Assembly: GCA_902551855.1 (NCBI GenBank)
Contig: CACDER010000011.1
Span: 1 to 32,749, forward strand
Length of the DNA stretch: 32,749 nt
Origin: an uncultured Cryomorphaceae bacterium
GTDB lineage: Bacteria > Bacteroidota > Bacteroidia > Flavobacteriales > UBA7430
Reading direction: 5' to 3'
Below are positions 14,647 through 21,095 of this stretch, piece by piece (the first letter of the stretch is position 1; every line of letters begins with the position of its first letter). The notes under the pieces were generated by a model. That model saw only the letters and a program-made list of their open reading frames with translations, searched no databases and was not told the DNA's origin. The translations under genes were made by a program, and so were the position numbers.

Positions 14647-14690
14647 ATATTAAAAAATATATTATTTGTCATTTATAAATTCTTATTGCG

Positions 14691-14698
14691 TATTTTTG
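14691..14698 (+). promoter_or_regulatory. Bacteroidota -7 box TATTTTTG upstream of the lysyl oxidase-like gene, with TTTG at 14665-14668
   Basis: TTTG-N22-TATTTTTG, 17 bp before the ATG at 14716; matches TTTG/TAnnTTTG consensus. Confidence 0.6.
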
Positions 14699-14715
14699 CA
14701 CAAAATATATTTATT

Positions 14716-16770
14716 ATGTACAAAATTACATCCATCTTTCTTTTAATGTTTAATTTTAATTTAATTGCTCAATGTACTATCTACGATGCTACTGATTGTC
14801 AATGTGCAAATCCAAATGAAACCGACTGTGATCTCTTACCTGATATTCAAGTGTCTTGGTTTGGACTTGAAAACGTAACTAATGGGCCAACGGAATATTC
14901 TCAAACAGGAGAGGGGGAAAATAACGGACGATTACGTATTAGCGTTTCCACTCCTAATGTTGGTCATGGACCACTTACTGTAAGAGGTGCAGGACCAGAT
15001 GGATACAGAACTTTTATATGTAGTTATCAAGATGGAATAACCGACACTATATCAATATATGATCCTTACTCTGAAGAAGAGTTTTACTGTTCAGATGGAA
15101 GTCATCCTGAACAAATTCTTTGGCAAAGAATTTATCATAGAAATAGCGATGGCTCTATGAGTCATTACGACCGTCAAGCAGGGAGTATGACATACCATCC
15201 TACACATGGGCATAACCATACAAATGATTGGGGTGTTTTTACCCTAAGAATAAAGGACGAAAATGAACCAGACCCAAGAAACTGGCCTATTGTGTCTGAT
15301 GGCGCAAAACTTGGTTTTTGCTTAATGGATTATGGTACCTGTAGCCCTGATAATACGATTGATGCCTACTCAAATGACGATTACACAGGGCATTGCCGTG
15401 ATGACAATACACAATATCAACAGGGTGAAGTTTTATACAATGTTGATTTTCCGAATTTTGGTCTCGGAGGTGGAAATTACGGTTGCTCAGAAGTTGTTCA
15501 AGGAATATCTTCAGGTTGGCTCGATCTTTATGGTGAATGGCTTGAAGAGCAGTGGATTAATTTAGACCCTAATATATGTAATGGCGAGTATTGGATTGTA
15601 GGAATAGCTGATCCTAACAATTATTTTTTGGAGGAAAATTCTGATAATAATTACTCGGCAATTCCGTTTAATTTAGCACTACAAAACAACGGAACTTCAT
15701 CTATTGATATTCAAGGAAGCATTGAAATTTGCGAAGGAGAAAGTGTCGAACTAACTGCAAATTATGGTAATAGTTATTTGTGGAGTAATGGCGAAACAAC
15801 ACAAAGTATTAGTGTTTCAGAGCAGGGTAGTTACAGTGTAACTGTAGAAAATCCAAACTGTGATCAAATAGTTGAGTCTGCCCCAACAAACGTTTTTAAA
15901 GTTTATGCTGATCCTCCTACTCTAAGTTCTTTTTACAACCCAAATAGTGCTTGCCTTGGTGAGCCTTTTTATATTGACCTTAATGAAGAAAATGTAACTT
16001 GGTATAATGAAAACGATGAATTAATTTTTGTCGGAAGCCCCTTTTATGTTCCATCTTTAGAAGAAGAATTGCACCTTTTTGCTAAACAAATTGTTGAAAA
16101 CTTCTCAACTGACAATGTTGGGGAACAGTATCATTCTGGAAATTCCGAATATAGCGGTGAAGAGTATAATGGATTTATGACATTTGATGCAAATGATGAC
16201 TTTATACTAAAGTCAATTGATGTGTTTACTGATAATATATATTCAGGAAACAGAACAATTGAATTAAAAAATGAAAACAACCAAATAATTCATGATACAA
16301 CTGTATTTATTAACTCTGATGCCACATTAAATCTTAACTGGAATATTAATGAGGGACAAAACTATAAAATAGGTACAAATACCGATTCTAATCTAGTAAA
16401 CTTTGGTTTTGCCAACCCGATGCTTAAAAGAAGTAGATCTGATGGTTGGGGTAACTCTTTCGATTATCCTTATGTTATTGAAAATATAATTTCCATTAAC
16501 GATAGTGAATATGGAAATGGGTTTTATTATTTTTTCTATAATTGGAAAGTTGATTGGGTCGTTTCCTCATGCGAATCTGAGGAATCTCTTGAAGTGCTTG
16601 TCACTCCAAACAATTGTTCAGTATCAATTGATGAATTAACCTTCGATAGCAATCAAATTTTAAATATATATGATTTATTAGGAAGAAAAATTTATTCTAG
16701 CTATGAGAATTTAGAATCAGGCACTTACATTATTGAAACTAAAACAAAAAAAATTAAAATCACAAAATAA
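14716..16770 (+). CDS. Lysyl oxidase-like copper amine oxidase domain protein with T9SS type A sorting domain
   Basis: ATG at 14716 gives signal peptide MYKITSIFLLMFNFNLIAQ (TTG at 14686 is a track extension). 'LPDIQVSWFGLEN..', 'HPTHGHNHTNDWGVFTLR', 'SDGAKLGFCLMDYGTC', 'GISSGWLDLYGEWLEEQWINL..G.YWIVGIADPNNYFLEENSDNNYS' match lysyl oxidase landmarks; C-terminal 'ILNIYDLLGRKIYSSYENLESGTYIIETKTKKIKITK'. Confidence 0.88.
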   Translation: MYKITSIFLLMFNFNLIAQCTIYDATDCQCANPNETDCDLLPDIQVSWFGLENVTNGPTEYSQTGEGENNGRLRISVSTPNVGHGPLTVRGAGPDGYRTFICSYQDGITDTISIYDPYSEEEFYCSDGSHPEQILWQRIYHRNSDGSMSHYDRQAGSMTYHPTHGHNHTNDWGVFTLRIKDENEPDPRNWPIVSDGAKLGFCLMDYGTCSPDNTIDAYSNDDYTGHCRDDNTQYQQGEVLYNVDFPNFGLGGGNYGCSEVVQGISSGWLDLYGEWLEEQWINLDPNICNGEYWIVGIADPNNYFLEENSDNNYSAIPFNLALQNNGTSSIDIQGSIEICEGESVELTANYGNSYLWSNGETTQSISVSEQGSYSVTVENPNCDQIVESAPTNVFKVYADPPTLSSFYNPNSACLGEPFYIDLNEENVTWYNENDELIFVGSPFYVPSLEEELHLFAKQIVENFSTDNVGEQYHSGNSEYSGEEYNGFMTFDANDDFILKSIDVFTDNIYSGNRTIELKNENNQIIHDTTVFINSDATLNLNWNINEGQNYKIGTNTDSNLVNFGFANPMLKRSRSDGWGNSFDYPYVIENIISINDSEYGNGFYYFFYNWKVDWVVSSCESEESLEVLVTPNNCSVSIDELTFDSNQILNIYDLLGRKIYSSYENLESGTYIIETKTKKIKITK

Positions 16771-16776
16771 AATATT

Positions 16777-18066
16777 ATGCAAATTCAATTTAGATTATTT
16801 TTATGCTTTTTCTCAATAAATTTTTATCTTGTTTCTCAAACTGTTAATGTCGGCAATACGACCCTAAATGTTAGAGAGGTAATTAACAACCTTAGCATTC
16901 CATGGGAAATTAAATGGGGTCCAGATGGATATATTTGGATGACTGAAAGGCCTGGAATTGTTAGTAGAGTAAATGTTGAATCTGGTGAAAAAAAAGTTAT
17001 TCTTGATATTCAAGATTTAACCTACTCATCATATACAAATAGTGAAGCAGGATTACTTGGGTTTGAATTTCATCCAAACTTTGCTTCCAATAAGATTCTA
17101 TTTTTAGTATACACATACACAACTAGTTCTGGCCAAATCAAAGAACGCCTTGTTTCGTATAATTACAATGAAACTCTTGACGAGCTCAAAAATGAAGAGA
17201 TTCTTATTGATAACATTAATGGGTGGACCACTCATGTTGGGTGTAGGATTCTTGCTCTTGATGACAACACCATTTTAATCTCAACTGGCGACGCCCAAGA
17301 TCAATCTTCCTCTCAAAATTTATTTGAACTTACTGGAAAAATTTTAAGAGTTGATGTTTCAGAGGACAATTTTGGCGGCGTCCCTTCGGATAACCCTGAC
17401 ACATCAAGTTATGTTTATTCTTGGGGTCATAGAAATGCTCAAGGTTTAGAGCTTGCTCCAAATGGAATAGTATATAGCTCTGAACATGGGCCTCAAAATG
17501 ATGATGAATTAAATATTCTTATGCCTAACAGAAATTATGGGTGGCCAAACGTACATGGTTTCTGTGATGCACCCAACGAAACAAACTTTTGTAATGCAAA
17601 TGATGTAGTAGAGCCCCTTGTAAATTGGACTCCAACAATTGCTCCTTCTGATATTATTTGGTATGATCATCCTTCTATTCCTGAATTTCAGAATACTCTG
17701 CTTATGACTGTATTAAAAAATAAAATGCTTGTTAAATTTGACTTCTCAGATGATGGACTAAGTGTTATTAATCAAACTGAATATTTTAATAATATGTGGG
17801 GAAGATTGCGTGATATTTGCGTAAGCCCGGATGGAAAAATATATCTTGCAACAAGTGGATATAGCTGGCCAAGCCAGCCGCCAAATGAAATTATAGAACT
17901 CTCTAACGATAACTACTATTTAAATTTAAACGAAACCCATCAGAAAAATCTTTCTATTAATAAAATAATTGATGTGTTGGGAAAAGAAATTTTAAATATA
18001 GAAGATTATAAAGGTATACATTTTATAATTTATAATGATGGTTCATCAAAAAAGAAAATAAAATAG
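16777..18066 (+). CDS. PQQ-dependent sugar dehydrogenase (soluble glucose/sorbosone dehydrogenase family), truncated T9SS-like tail
   Basis: ORF 429 aa; 'LSIPWEIKWGPDGYIWMTERPGIVSRV', 'AGLLGFEFHPNF', 'SWGHRNAQGLELAPNGIVYSSEHGPQNDDELNILMPNRNYGWP'. Confidence 0.93.
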   Translation: MQIQFRLFLCFFSINFYLVSQTVNVGNTTLNVREVINNLSIPWEIKWGPDGYIWMTERPGIVSRVNVESGEKKVILDIQDLTYSSYTNSEAGLLGFEFHPNFASNKILFLVYTYTTSSGQIKERLVSYNYNETLDELKNEEILIDNINGWTTHVGCRILALDDNTILISTGDAQDQSSSQNLFELTGKILRVDVSEDNFGGVPSDNPDTSSYVYSWGHRNAQGLELAPNGIVYSSEHGPQNDDELNILMPNRNYGWPNVHGFCDAPNETNFCNANDVVEPLVNWTPTIAPSDIIWYDHPSIPEFQNTLLMTVLKNKMLVKFDFSDDGLSVINQTEYFNNMWGRLRDICVSPDGKIYLATSGYSWPSQPPNEIIELSNDNYYLNLNETHQKNLSINKIIDVLGKEILNIEDYKGIHFIIYNDGSSKKKIK

Positions 18067-18067
18067 G

Positions 18068-19414
18068 CTATCTACTTATTGCTAATTTTTTGATAAACCT
18101 TTTATTATTTTGAATTATTTCTACGATATATAGTCCATTATAAAGTGTCCGTGAATCTATACTTGTTAATGTTTGTCCTGGAAAGATTTGTGACATTTTT
18201 AAAATTTTTCCATTTAAATCTATAACATTAACCTTTGTGTTTTCTTTAACTAATCCCAAGCATTGAACAATTATTATCTCTGAAGATTTATTGATGAAAG
18301 CGCTAAAACCCATAGTTAAACTTTCATTATTTAAATTTGTTTGATAATAGGTGGTTGTTTGTTCTAAAATACTATTTGTCATACTGTTTGAATATTCGCC
18401 ATAAAATGTTGGCCCAACAGCATATGGATATTTGGAATTCCAATTTTCATCTACTGTACAAAAATATGCATATGTTCCTTCAGGATACTCTGGTGTTACA
18501 CAGTGTCTTCCATTATGTTCATCTAAATATTTATCTTCTTCCCGGTCTATAAATTCGTAATCTTCTCTAAAATATCCCAGAAAATATTCTGATATACTTG
18601 GCCCATCCTCAACATCTGTTCCATCAGCATGGTGAGTTCTTTCTGTTATATTTCTTAAATTATATCCTGATTCTATTCGAACAACACCTCCAGACCCGTC
18701 ATTATTTTGATATCCATATGCACCATAAATAGGAAAACCATCAAAAGCATAGCCTAAAAGTGGGGAATGAACAGTTGAATCTATCACATACAATCCGTCT
18801 GAATCATACAAATCACAAACATCTGAAACAAGAAACCTATCTAGTTTAAATGCTGATGGATTTTGATGGTGATGATAGTTTCCCATAGCTGGATGTCCTT
18901 TTGCGCAATCAAACCCTTCCATTTCTGCAAGAATTGCATCTCTATTCCAATCCATTTCTGCAAGAAATCCACCTGGACATGGAGGGTTGCCAGGACCGCC
19001 ACACAGTTGGTTGGTGTTTGGGTTCCAAGCAACCCCATCTCTATAATCAAATAGCGCAACTCCGTTAATAAATACCCCTATATTTCCTGGTGTCGTGTAA
19101 GTTAAATCACCCAAGTTTTGCTGAGGGTTTCTAGTAATTTTAAAAATCATTGCTTGGTTTTGTGCGTTTGACGGGTTTCCGTCAAGAAAAGGACCTGTTG
19201 GATAAGAAGGAACCCCTGTTGCTGTTACATAAACATAATCATTGGAAAACTGAACCTTTTGGCAATTAACTAAAATATTATTTGGAACTAATACTGGAGA
19301 ACCTGCAATATAATAATTTCCAGTTGTTTCTGTATTTTGAAGCCAAGAATAGATTTCTGGTTGAGAAAAACAATTTACGGTGTTTAGTAAGAGTATGTAG
19401 GCTATTTTTTTCAT
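18068..19414 (-). CDS. YHYH domain protein with T9SS type A sorting domain
   Basis: ORF 448 aa; 'GNYHHHQNPSAF', 'LLGYAFDGFPIYGAYGYQNNDGSGGVVRIESGYNLR', 'GTYAYFCTVDENWNSKYPYAVGPTFYG'; C-terminal 'NVIDLNGKILKMSQIFPGQTL..LYNGLYIVEIIQNNKRFIKKLAISR'. Confidence 0.9.
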   Translation of the reverse strand: MKKIAYILLLNTVNCFSQPEIYSWLQNTETTGNYYIAGSPVLVPNNILVNCQKVQFSNDYVYVTATGVPSYPTGPFLDGNPSNAQNQAMIFKITRNPQQNLGDLTYTTPGNIGVFINGVALFDYRDGVAWNPNTNQLCGGPGNPPCPGGFLAEMDWNRDAILAEMEGFDCAKGHPAMGNYHHHQNPSAFKLDRFLVSDVCDLYDSDGLYVIDSTVHSPLLGYAFDGFPIYGAYGYQNNDGSGGVVRIESGYNLRNITERTHHADGTDVEDGPSISEYFLGYFREDYEFIDREEDKYLDEHNGRHCVTPEYPEGTYAYFCTVDENWNSKYPYAVGPTFYGEYSNSMTNSILEQTTTYYQTNLNNESLTMGFSAFINKSSEIIIVQCLGLVKENTKVNVIDLNGKILKMSQIFPGQTLTSIDSRTLYNGLYIVEIIQNNKRFIKKLAISR

Positions 19415-20397
19415 TATTTTAAAAGTTTATTTACAGGAAATTTATTTTCAGGGTTTAATATAAACTCCTTATCATTTAAAGTTAATAAAAAAGATATTAT
19501 ATCTATTGTTTCTTTTTCAGTTAAACTTACAGAATTAAATTTTGGCCCTGAATAATGTTTCAAAACTTCAAATAAATTTGAAAACCTGCCGTCGTGCATA
19601 TATGGGTAAGTATAAGATAAATTCCTAAGTGAAGGAACTTCAAAAGACATAAAATCGTCACTATTTTTAGTAATACTAAATCTTCCTGAGTCTAATAAAA
19701 CTTGATTAATGTCCAAAAAATTATTTTCAAACTTATAATTTGTAAACATTGGCTCCTTATGGCAATTACTACAATTTTTTTTGAATAATTCATATCCTCT
19801 GATTTCCTGATCTGAAAAGTGATCTTCTCCTAGTCTAAATCTGTCATATTTTGAATTTTTCGAAATTAAAGTTAATTCAAATTGTGAAATTGATTTTAAT
19901 ACCCTATCTAAATTAATTGTGGAATCGCCAAATGCTTCATAAAACATAGTAATATATTTTTGGTTTTTTTTTAATTTATAAAGTAGATTATCTAAAGAAT
20001 TTCCCATTTCTAAACTGTCCGTTATCGGAACTAATGACTGCATATCTAAATGATTGACGGCGCCGTCTCTCATGAAAGAAGATTTCCAAGCTAAATTAAA
20101 TAATGGGGGGGCGTTTCTTTTACCGATTTTATCATTTATGCCATGGCTTAATCTATGATCTGTATGTGAAAAAGCATTATATGGGCTATGGCAACTTTCA
20201 CAAGAAATAGTGCTATCTATTGATAATATAGGGTCGTAAAACAACATTCTTCCCAATTCAATTTTTGTTTTTGATAAATTATTTTTTGAAAAATCATACT
20301 TAGTTTTGGGGAAATACTCTGGGTAATTAAAAAGACTTTCCTCAATAAATACGTTAATTATTCCGTAAAATAAAGCTAATTTTAAAAACACTTTCAT
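19414..20397 (-). CDS. mbnH: Diheme cytochrome c peroxidase / MauG family protein, probable MbnH
   Basis: ORF 327 aa with two CxxCH hemes (CESCH, CSNCH), 'ELGRMLFYDPILS', 'RNAPPLFNLAWKSSFMRDGAV', 'PSLRNLSYTYPYMHDGRFSNLFEVL'; immediately downstream of and overlapping an MbnP-family gene. Confidence 0.85.
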   Translation of the reverse strand: MKVFLKLALFYGIINVFIEESLFNYPEYFPKTKYDFSKNNLSKTKIELGRMLFYDPILSIDSTISCESCHSPYNAFSHTDHRLSHGINDKIGKRNAPPLFNLAWKSSFMRDGAVNHLDMQSLVPITDSLEMGNSLDNLLYKLKKNQKYITMFYEAFGDSTINLDRVLKSISQFELTLISKNSKYDRFRLGEDHFSDQEIRGYELFKKNCSNCHKEPMFTNYKFENNFLDINQVLLDSGRFSITKNSDDFMSFEVPSLRNLSYTYPYMHDGRFSNLFEVLKHYSGPKFNSVSLTEKETIDIISFLLTLNDKEFILNPENKFPVNKLLK

Positions 20398-21095
20398 TTT
20401 TTAAATTCAAATGATTTAACAATTAAATTTGAAATGTTTTCCCCTTTTAAACTTGGACTCATAATCATTTGTCTATCACAGTTTATTTTTTTAAGGAACT
20501 TATTAAGGTTAAATATTAACCTATGTATGTGTCTTTTTTTGACTAAAACTGTTCTTTTATTATAATACGGCTTTTTGTACCCCCCCAAATGAAAAATGAA
20601 TTGATTATTATCGTTTGAGCACATGTTACTTTCCCACTCAATTTTAAAATTAATATACCCACTTTGCCAAGCCCAATACATACCCTCTATTGGGTCTAGA
20701 GCACCACCCAGTGAACCACTGACATTTATAACACTATCTAATCCTAAATCAAAAGAATATAACTGACTCTTTTTGTTTATTTGAGACTTAATTTTTAAAG
20801 ATTTGGGGTTGTTAAGATCAACTAAATAAACTTTTTCATCAGTGAATATTTCGTCATTTTTTCTATTATAATAACTTATATTTGAAACATAAAACTTAAG
20901 TTTCTTTATATTAAAATGATATTTTCTTATACTGTAATTTTTATTTAATTTAGTGGCCTCATTATTAAATGTTGCTTGAAATTCAATATTCTCTTGCGGG
21001 AATAAATTATATGTAAAAAAAATAAACAGAAAGCTTATAAAGTATTTAAAAAAAAAGCCGCAAGTAGCGGCAAATTTTTCAAATTTATTTGACAA
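20394..21095 (-). CDS. mbnP: MbnP family copper-binding protein (start codon uncertain)
   Basis: Motifs 'RKYHFNIKKLKFYVSNISYY', 'SFDLGLDSVINVSGSLGGALDPIEGMYWAWQSGYINFKIEWES', 'QFIFHLGGY' are MbnP hallmarks. Track start is TTG at 21095 and reads through a terminator hairpin; no in-frame ATG near the signal peptide KYFISFLFIFFTYNLFPQ. Confidence 0.87.
   Translation of the reverse strand: MSNKFEKFAATCGFFFKYFISFLFIFFTYNLFPQENIEFQATFNNEATKLNKNYSIRKYHFNIKKLKFYVSNISYYNRKNDEIFTDEKVYLVDLNNPKSLKIKSQINKKSQLYSFDLGLDSVINVSGSLGGALDPIEGMYWAWQSGYINFKIEWESNMCSNDNNQFIFHLGGYKKPYYNKRTVLVKKRHIHRLIFNLNKFLKKINCDRQMIMSPSLKGENISNLIVKSFEFKK
21048..21071 (-). terminator. Rho-independent terminator after the T9SS cargo gene, lying within the annotated N-terminus of mbnP
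   Basis: On the minus strand GCCGC-TACTT-GCGGC followed by TTTTTTTTT. Confidence 0.75.

Follow-up and report, generated by a model that had tools for sequence, protein, structure and literature searches.

The contig CACDER010000011.1 of an uncultured Cryomorphaceae bacterium (positions 1 to 32,749 of the forward strand, the whole 32,749-nucleotide stretch being referred to as the window) carries on its minus strand a tightly packed operon, mbnP, mbnH and yhyh in that order. The genes encode an MbnP-family protein, a MauG-like diheme enzyme and a YHYH protein with a type IX secretion system (T9SS) export tail. The three genes almost certainly belong to a single conserved functional module, and this module likely has a copper role. 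We propose, at roughly even odds (0.5), that the operon handles copper: MbnH would convert MbnP into a kynurenine Cu(I) protein, YHYH would be an exported metalloprotein served by MbnP, and expression would probably be induced by metal. MbnPH pairs and the YHYH domain are known already; the operon that joins both appears to be the new part. The genes, coordinates, strand and overlaps described in an initial annotation of the sequence are exact. The end of mbnP at 20394 and the start of mbnH at 20397 give a 4-bp overlap (ATGA), and the end of mbnH and the start of yhyh share 1 bp at 19414 (TAATG). The −4 overlap between mbnP and mbnH is present in 35 of the 70 pairs measured across loci.

The spread of the trio was determined in two data sets. 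In a phylum sample of 396 genomes, MbnP was found in 97 genomes and YHYH in 39, with a full-length, high-scoring YHYH in 25 of the latter. MbnP and a full-length YHYH occur together in 13 genomes compared to 6.1 expected (P 0.002). The two lie within a few kb of each other in 8 of these 13 genomes, the 8 representing six families, and this co-location has a P of ~2e-16 at a generous per-genome chance of 0.45%. In three further genomes (G192, G144 and G101) a similar MbnPH is present and YHYH is encoded at another site. The second data set came from searching 84,980 species genomes with only the YHYH alignment as query; the best 80 of 555 confirmed relatives were kept. MbnH is near YHYH in 69 of these 80 loci, or in 69 of 73 counting loci with >900 bp of visible upstream DNA. 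Of the 11 loci without MbnH, seven run into a contig end or come close to one; the gene is missing despite sufficient flanking DNA only in L130, L134, L170 and L179. MbnP is beside MbnH in 63 of the 69 loci, the remainder being mostly contig-end cuts, and the order MbnP-MbnH-YHYH is dominant (58 loci). The MbnH-bearing hosts belong to at least five classes and include Flavobacteriia, Saprospiria, Chitinophagia, Sphingobacteriia, Kapaibacteriaceae and Ignavibacteria. The trio genes are also present in the cultured strains Neolewinella persica DSM 23188 and N. agarilytica DSM 24740. These data support the earlier suggestion of an extended MbnPH module, with YHYH as a regular third partner. The association reaches far beyond this lineage; its restriction to the lineage had been named in the initial annotation as a refuting outcome.

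The product of the first gene is an MbnP-family member with a predicted MbnP fold. It scores 122 bits against PF20243 (2.9e-35; Pfam cut-off 27), begins with a hydrophobic signal-like stretch and has no T9SS tail. An AlphaFold model derived from 68 sequences (pLDDT 92) was used for a fold search. The model matched all six chains of 7L6G, the Methylosinus trichosporium MbnP, with E ~1e-6 and TMq ~0.6; there was no other significant match, and the CorA/MopE copper-protein fold was not matched in this search. A PDB sequence search with the predicted proteins P0001 and P0003 gave no matches. The HxG region was aligned with 7L6G by the MbnP profile, evidence that is weak on its own. W141 and W143 are invariant and M139 is nearly so across 68 MbnPs, and GMxWxW is present in 70 of 72 module MbnPs. 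Manesis et al. in 2021 (cited in PMC9426467) reportedly found that the first Trp of the MbnP WxW motif becomes kynurenine, and that the Cu(I) site uses His and Met. The conserved Trp, Met and His residues fit that site. The initial annotation had called for an alignment of the MbnP Trp residues, and in it the Trp oxidized in characterized MbnP is kept as W141, the expected modification site.

The second protein scores 172 bits against PF03150 (CCP_MauG) and has no T9SS sorting domain. Among curated models MbnH (TIGR04039) fits best and MauG next; the strict cut-offs are not reached. The Tyr282 position is Met in the CcpA peroxidases 2C1U and 3O5C, and the axial Tyr is present in 76 of 76 readable module MbnHs. 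Arg (FMRDG) occupies the FWDG position of the bridging Trp in the window protein. Among 57 readable MbnHs from module loci, this position is Trp in 51, Arg in 4 and His in 2. The module MbnHs cluster in a FastTree tree that contains some long branches, with 7 label changes compared to 39 when the labels are shuffled. It is highly improbable that the protein is an ordinary cytochrome c peroxidase with MbnP as an incidental neighbor. The CcpA peroxidases do outrank MbnH and MauG by overall score in a phmmer search of the PDB. Despite this ranking, the best-fitting curated model and the axial Tyr, in place of the CcpA Met on the high-potential heme, identify an enzyme of the MbnH/MauG type, and MbnP accompanies it in nearly all scan loci. 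By these features the protein is of the MbnH/MauG type and not an ordinary CcpA peroxidase, in line with the initial annotation.

The third protein scores 184 bits against PF14240 (cut-off 25). The T9SS tail assigned to it earlier is a PF18962 match of 29.7 bits compared to a cut-off of 27; it is the only such tail among the three operon proteins, and 15 of the 16 YHYHs of one alignment have one. Six residues (H174, H181, H183, D169, D225 and D298) are the same in all YHYHs compared, 50 of the module type, 3 long ones from outside the module and 4 short lipoproteins. These residues agree with the published prediction of a metal site of three His and one Asp (PMC7824862). The features that track the module are a Cys pair, C170/C200, found in 49 of 50 sequences each and absent in non-module sequences, and Tyr203. 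The Cys pair could form a disulfide. The YHYH domain was modeled with a pLDDT of 88. A fold search with this model against solved structures found no similar structure, so an enzyme class cannot be inferred from the fold, and the YHYH profile matched only T9SS tails and chance hits in the PDB. The model does match phage YHYH models (BFVD, E 1e-20). Among phage records, 463 contain a YHYH homologue (e.g. KJ019125.1:65803-66609); nearly all are from cyanophages, and identity is ~33% in the best matches. Plasmid records contain one distant Deinococcus YHYH, which adjoins a HupE/UreJ gene and is without MbnPH.

The initial annotation suggested that YHYH is a surface partner or an additional substrate of MbnH. 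As a substrate, YHYH would have a Trp or Tyr oxidized during passage through the periplasm. The adjacent, closely coupled mbnH and yhyh genes and the W24 and W156 residues, which are (nearly) invariant in module YHYHs, are consistent with this idea. However, long YHYHs without MbnH conserve both residues just as well. No Trp therefore follows the presence of the enzyme; the residues that go with the module are the Cys pair and Tyr203. These data make a second MbnH substrate improbable.

The neighbors of related operons point to metals. A same-strand cassette precedes mbnP in 26 of the 59 triads with visible upstream DNA, and consists of an extracytoplasmic function (ECF) sigma factor, a small protein (~90 residues, a single hydrophobic stretch) and a CnrX/Metal_resist-like anchored protein of the periplasm (~155 residues); in a few of the counted loci, no gene for the small protein was called on this strand. 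PF13801 (Metal_resist) is above cut-off in L115 and L059, and below cut-off or absent in the other CnrX-like proteins. The cassette was not found in the 30 first-fetched MbnP loci of the phylum sample (L006-L035). Outside the triads it occurs in L092, where MbnPH is of the YHYH-linked type and YHYH is elsewhere in the genome, and in L059, before a lipoprotein YHYH. Since relatives place the operon behind this cassette, the operon is probably metal-induced. Copper enzymes are also found nearby. In L115, yhyh is followed by a multicopper oxidase with a T9SS tail, of which L136 has a homologue, and in L131 a Cu2_monoox_C protein lies after the triad. A second branch, the short lipoprotein YHYHs, is encoded together with the copper chaperone SCO1 in 16 of the genomes sampled, and a MORN-repeat protein usually separates the two. 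One of these operons stands behind the cassette: the order in G077 is ECF, small one-helix protein, CnrX-like protein, YHYH, YHYH, MORN and SCO1. YHYH is thus found with either of two periplasmic copper proteins, and in both contexts can stand behind this type of cassette. A copper role of YHYH draws its main support from this pattern, which does not depend on MbnPH.

These contexts bear on whether copper would move outward or inward. The preferred reading has YHYH as the recipient of copper from MbnP. The opposite direction, with YHYH binding copper at the cell surface and handing it on to periplasmic MbnP, is unlikely. The T9SS does put YHYH outside, the analogous kynurenine proteins CorA/MopE are surface-associated and copper-repressible (PMC3912023), and a TonB-dependent receptor lies downstream in L136. 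However, a TonB receptor is not a regular neighbor of the triads, and an association with SCO1 speaks for copper delivery rather than uptake.

Several observations weigh against the copper-client reading. CnrX is a Ni/Co sensor, so copper specificity of the cassette does not follow, and the window's own copy of the operon is without the cassette. MbnP scores 44.8 bits against the NCBIfam equivalog TIGR04052 (cut-off 140), and MbnH scores 188.8 bits against TIGR04039 (cut-off 362.85). In Bacteroidota most MbnP loci have no YHYH, and many YHYHs, the phage ones among them, come without MbnPH. Because each commonly occurs without the other, MbnPH and YHYH are not generally needed for each other, and the earlier description of an obligate-looking partner was too strong. 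A literature search for YHYH and copper returned nothing relevant, and the literature yielded no experimental study of a YHYH protein. A Zn site of three His and one Asp and a role as Zn-dependent hydrolase have been predicted for phage tail YHYHs (PMC7824862). By extension the operon's YHYH would be a surface Zn hydrolase, with MbnPH merely co-regulated in one metal regulon and no physical contact between them. The sulfatase-like T9SS proteins beside triads in eight loci, two of them between mbnH and yhyh, are consistent with this alternative. We consider it rather unlikely: the recurrent partners are copper proteins, MbnP or SCO1, not hydrolytic pathways, and the YHYH model is unlike any solved hydrolase.

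The copper reading draws on the co-location, the MbnP fold match, the WxW motif with its Met and His, the axial Tyr, the cassette, the copper-enzyme neighbors, the SCO1 operons and the three His and Asp of YHYH. In the proposed mechanism, MbnH would act as a periplasmic MauG/MbnH-type diheme enzyme that oxidizes W141 of MbnP to kynurenine, as carried over from the MbnP/MbnH literature. Kynurenine and the neighboring Met and His would give MbnP a high-affinity Cu(I) site like that of its characterized relatives. YHYH would cross the same periplasm and then be exported by the T9SS to the cell surface or medium. Its His/Asp site may be the destination of the MbnP-held copper, which would be loaded before or during export, and the operon may be under the control of metal status. 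YHYH is most likely a metalloprotein and a copper client of MbnP, with the copper in YHYH and the direction of transfer suggested by these contexts. A more tentative and doubtful extension is that the YHYHs are a new class of extracytoplasmic copper protein with a fold unlike solved structures. MbnP would then serve the T9SS branch and SCO1 the lipoprotein branch, and in Bacteroidota the same cassette could drive both.

Coordinates of the operon genes and their features in the window.
Feature	Position	Strand	Remark
mbnP	20394..21095	−	MbnP-family protein, 233 aa counted from TTG; start uncertain
Terminator-like hairpin	21057..21071	−	GCCGC-tactt-GCGGC then T9; between the preceding gene and mbnP, in the N-terminal part of the mbnP frame
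MbnP motif M139-Y-W141-A-W143	20667..20681	−	W141 is the first Trp of WxW, expected kynurenine site
MbnP His169	20589..20591	−	Candidate copper ligand; invariant column in the 68-MbnP alignment
mbnH	19414..20397	−	MauG-like diheme enzyme, 327 aa; PF03150; TIGR04039 is the best NCBIfam model
First heme motif CESCH	20188..20202	−	Residues 66-70; invariant in MbnH alignment
Second heme motif CSNCH	19759..19773	−	Residues 209-213; invariant in MbnH alignment
MbnH Tyr282	19552..19554	−	Aligned with MauG Tyr294 and the matching Tyr of MbnH 6E1C
yhyh	18068..19414	−	YHYH protein with T9SS export tail, 448 aa; PF14240 4.1e-54, PF18962 8.2e-7
YHYH domain	18437..19144	−	Pfam
H174...Y180-H181-H182-H183	18866..18895	−	Core of the presumed metal site of YHYH
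T9SS C-terminal sorting domain of YHYH	18077..18250	−	PF18962

The mbnP gene has no ATG start, and the listed TTG sits within the last codons of the upstream gene (window 21040-21095). The hairpin search found 2 hairpins compared to 1.8 expected and is weak alone; the one in the table is kept in the same-genus genome G396. In this genome (L211) the neighboring genes and their order match those of the window, and mbnP again has the TTG and no ATG, with an in-frame 3-bp difference. The same arrangement in G396 makes it unlikely that the TTG start is an assembly slip. The upstream gene P0004 (21085-21816) was rejected as an operon member; the terminator-like hairpin follows it, and it is not among the recurrent neighbors. 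Two plus-strand genes converge on the operon, a lysyl-oxidase-like protein (14686-16770; PF01186, HGHNH motif) and a GSDH-type pyrroloquinoline quinone dehydrogenase-like protein (16777-18066). PF01186 is a copper enzyme family, and both genes are kept in G396.

Other loci contain variations on the same families. Related proteins of 530-610 residues lie beside triads in eight loci (L069, L070, L109, L110, L122, L136, L151 and L159); the L122 member is a T9SS-tailed sulfatase, and in L109 and L151 such proteins sit between mbnH and yhyh. Sulfatases, PIN and RecQ were considered as core members and judged to be occasional neighbors. A third, divergent YHYH type (lipoprotein-like, 319-385 residues) is also found near MbnPH in L107, L110 and L132. 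A second MbnP without MbnH is encoded in G000:C52 (L088) and G396:C15 (L212). The L088 gene is placed between an apolipoprotein N-acyltransferase (Lnt) gene and a PNGase F-like gene, and the Lnt-MbnP pair recurs in L214. PNGase F and copper monooxygenases share a fold. A third MbnP, in G000:C15:3966-5874 (L089), has its own T9SS-like tail and is followed by an MbnH split over two frames by a frameshift or assembly error. One MbnP followed by two successive MbnH genes is found in L081, L091, L095, L097 and L100, and that MbnP is often longer than usual.

The operon was compared with known systems. CnrYXH of Cupriavidus is a metal-sensing ECF sigma system ahead of an efflux pump. The relatives' cassette resembles it in having an ECF sigma factor, a small one-helix protein and an anchored periplasmic Metal_resist-type protein in a row. 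It differs in that it precedes MbnPH-YHYH or YHYH-SCO1 rather than an efflux pump, most CnrX-like members are under Pfam cut-offs, and the window has none. The operon shares with the MbnP/MbnH pair (TIGR04052/TIGR04039, the 'metallo-mystery pair', GenProp0940; 7L6G, 6E1C) the MbnP fold, the WxW motif with Met and a later His, and adjacent genes with a diheme MauG-like partner that has the axial Tyr. Unlike the pair of methanobactin operons, it has a third, T9SS-exported YHYH gene and no methanobactin genes were seen here; the ECF/CnrX-like cassette is frequent in its relatives, and both proteins are under the NCBIfam equivalog cut-offs. CorA/CorB and MopE/SACCP of methanotrophs (PMC3912023) also combine a copper protein with Trp-derived kynurenine at or near the cell surface and an adjacent diheme peroxidase-like gene. 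Their fold is different, the MbnP model having matched only 7L6G, and CorA uses kynurenine and two His compared to Trp, Met and His here. The YHYHs of cyanophage tails and jumbo phages (PMC7824862, PMC7029224) have the same domain, predicted fold and predicted conserved His and Asp. There they are fused to tail or baseplate proteins, whereas here YHYH is T9SS-exported and encoded with MbnPH. MbnPH pairs were already known and called 'mysterious partners' (PMC3621798). We found no paper joining MbnPH and YHYH in a search that did not cover the main MbnP neighborhood analysis, and an earlier mention is possible.

MbnP/MbnH pairs are widespread. The conserved operon, the YHYH-SCO1 operons and the shared metal-sensing-type cassette bring two orphan families, MbnP/MbnH and YHYH, to one question, whether copper passes from MbnP or SCO1 to YHYH. 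YHYH thereby gains a first testable job in copper handling, and the cultured Neolewinella hosts make it directly testable.

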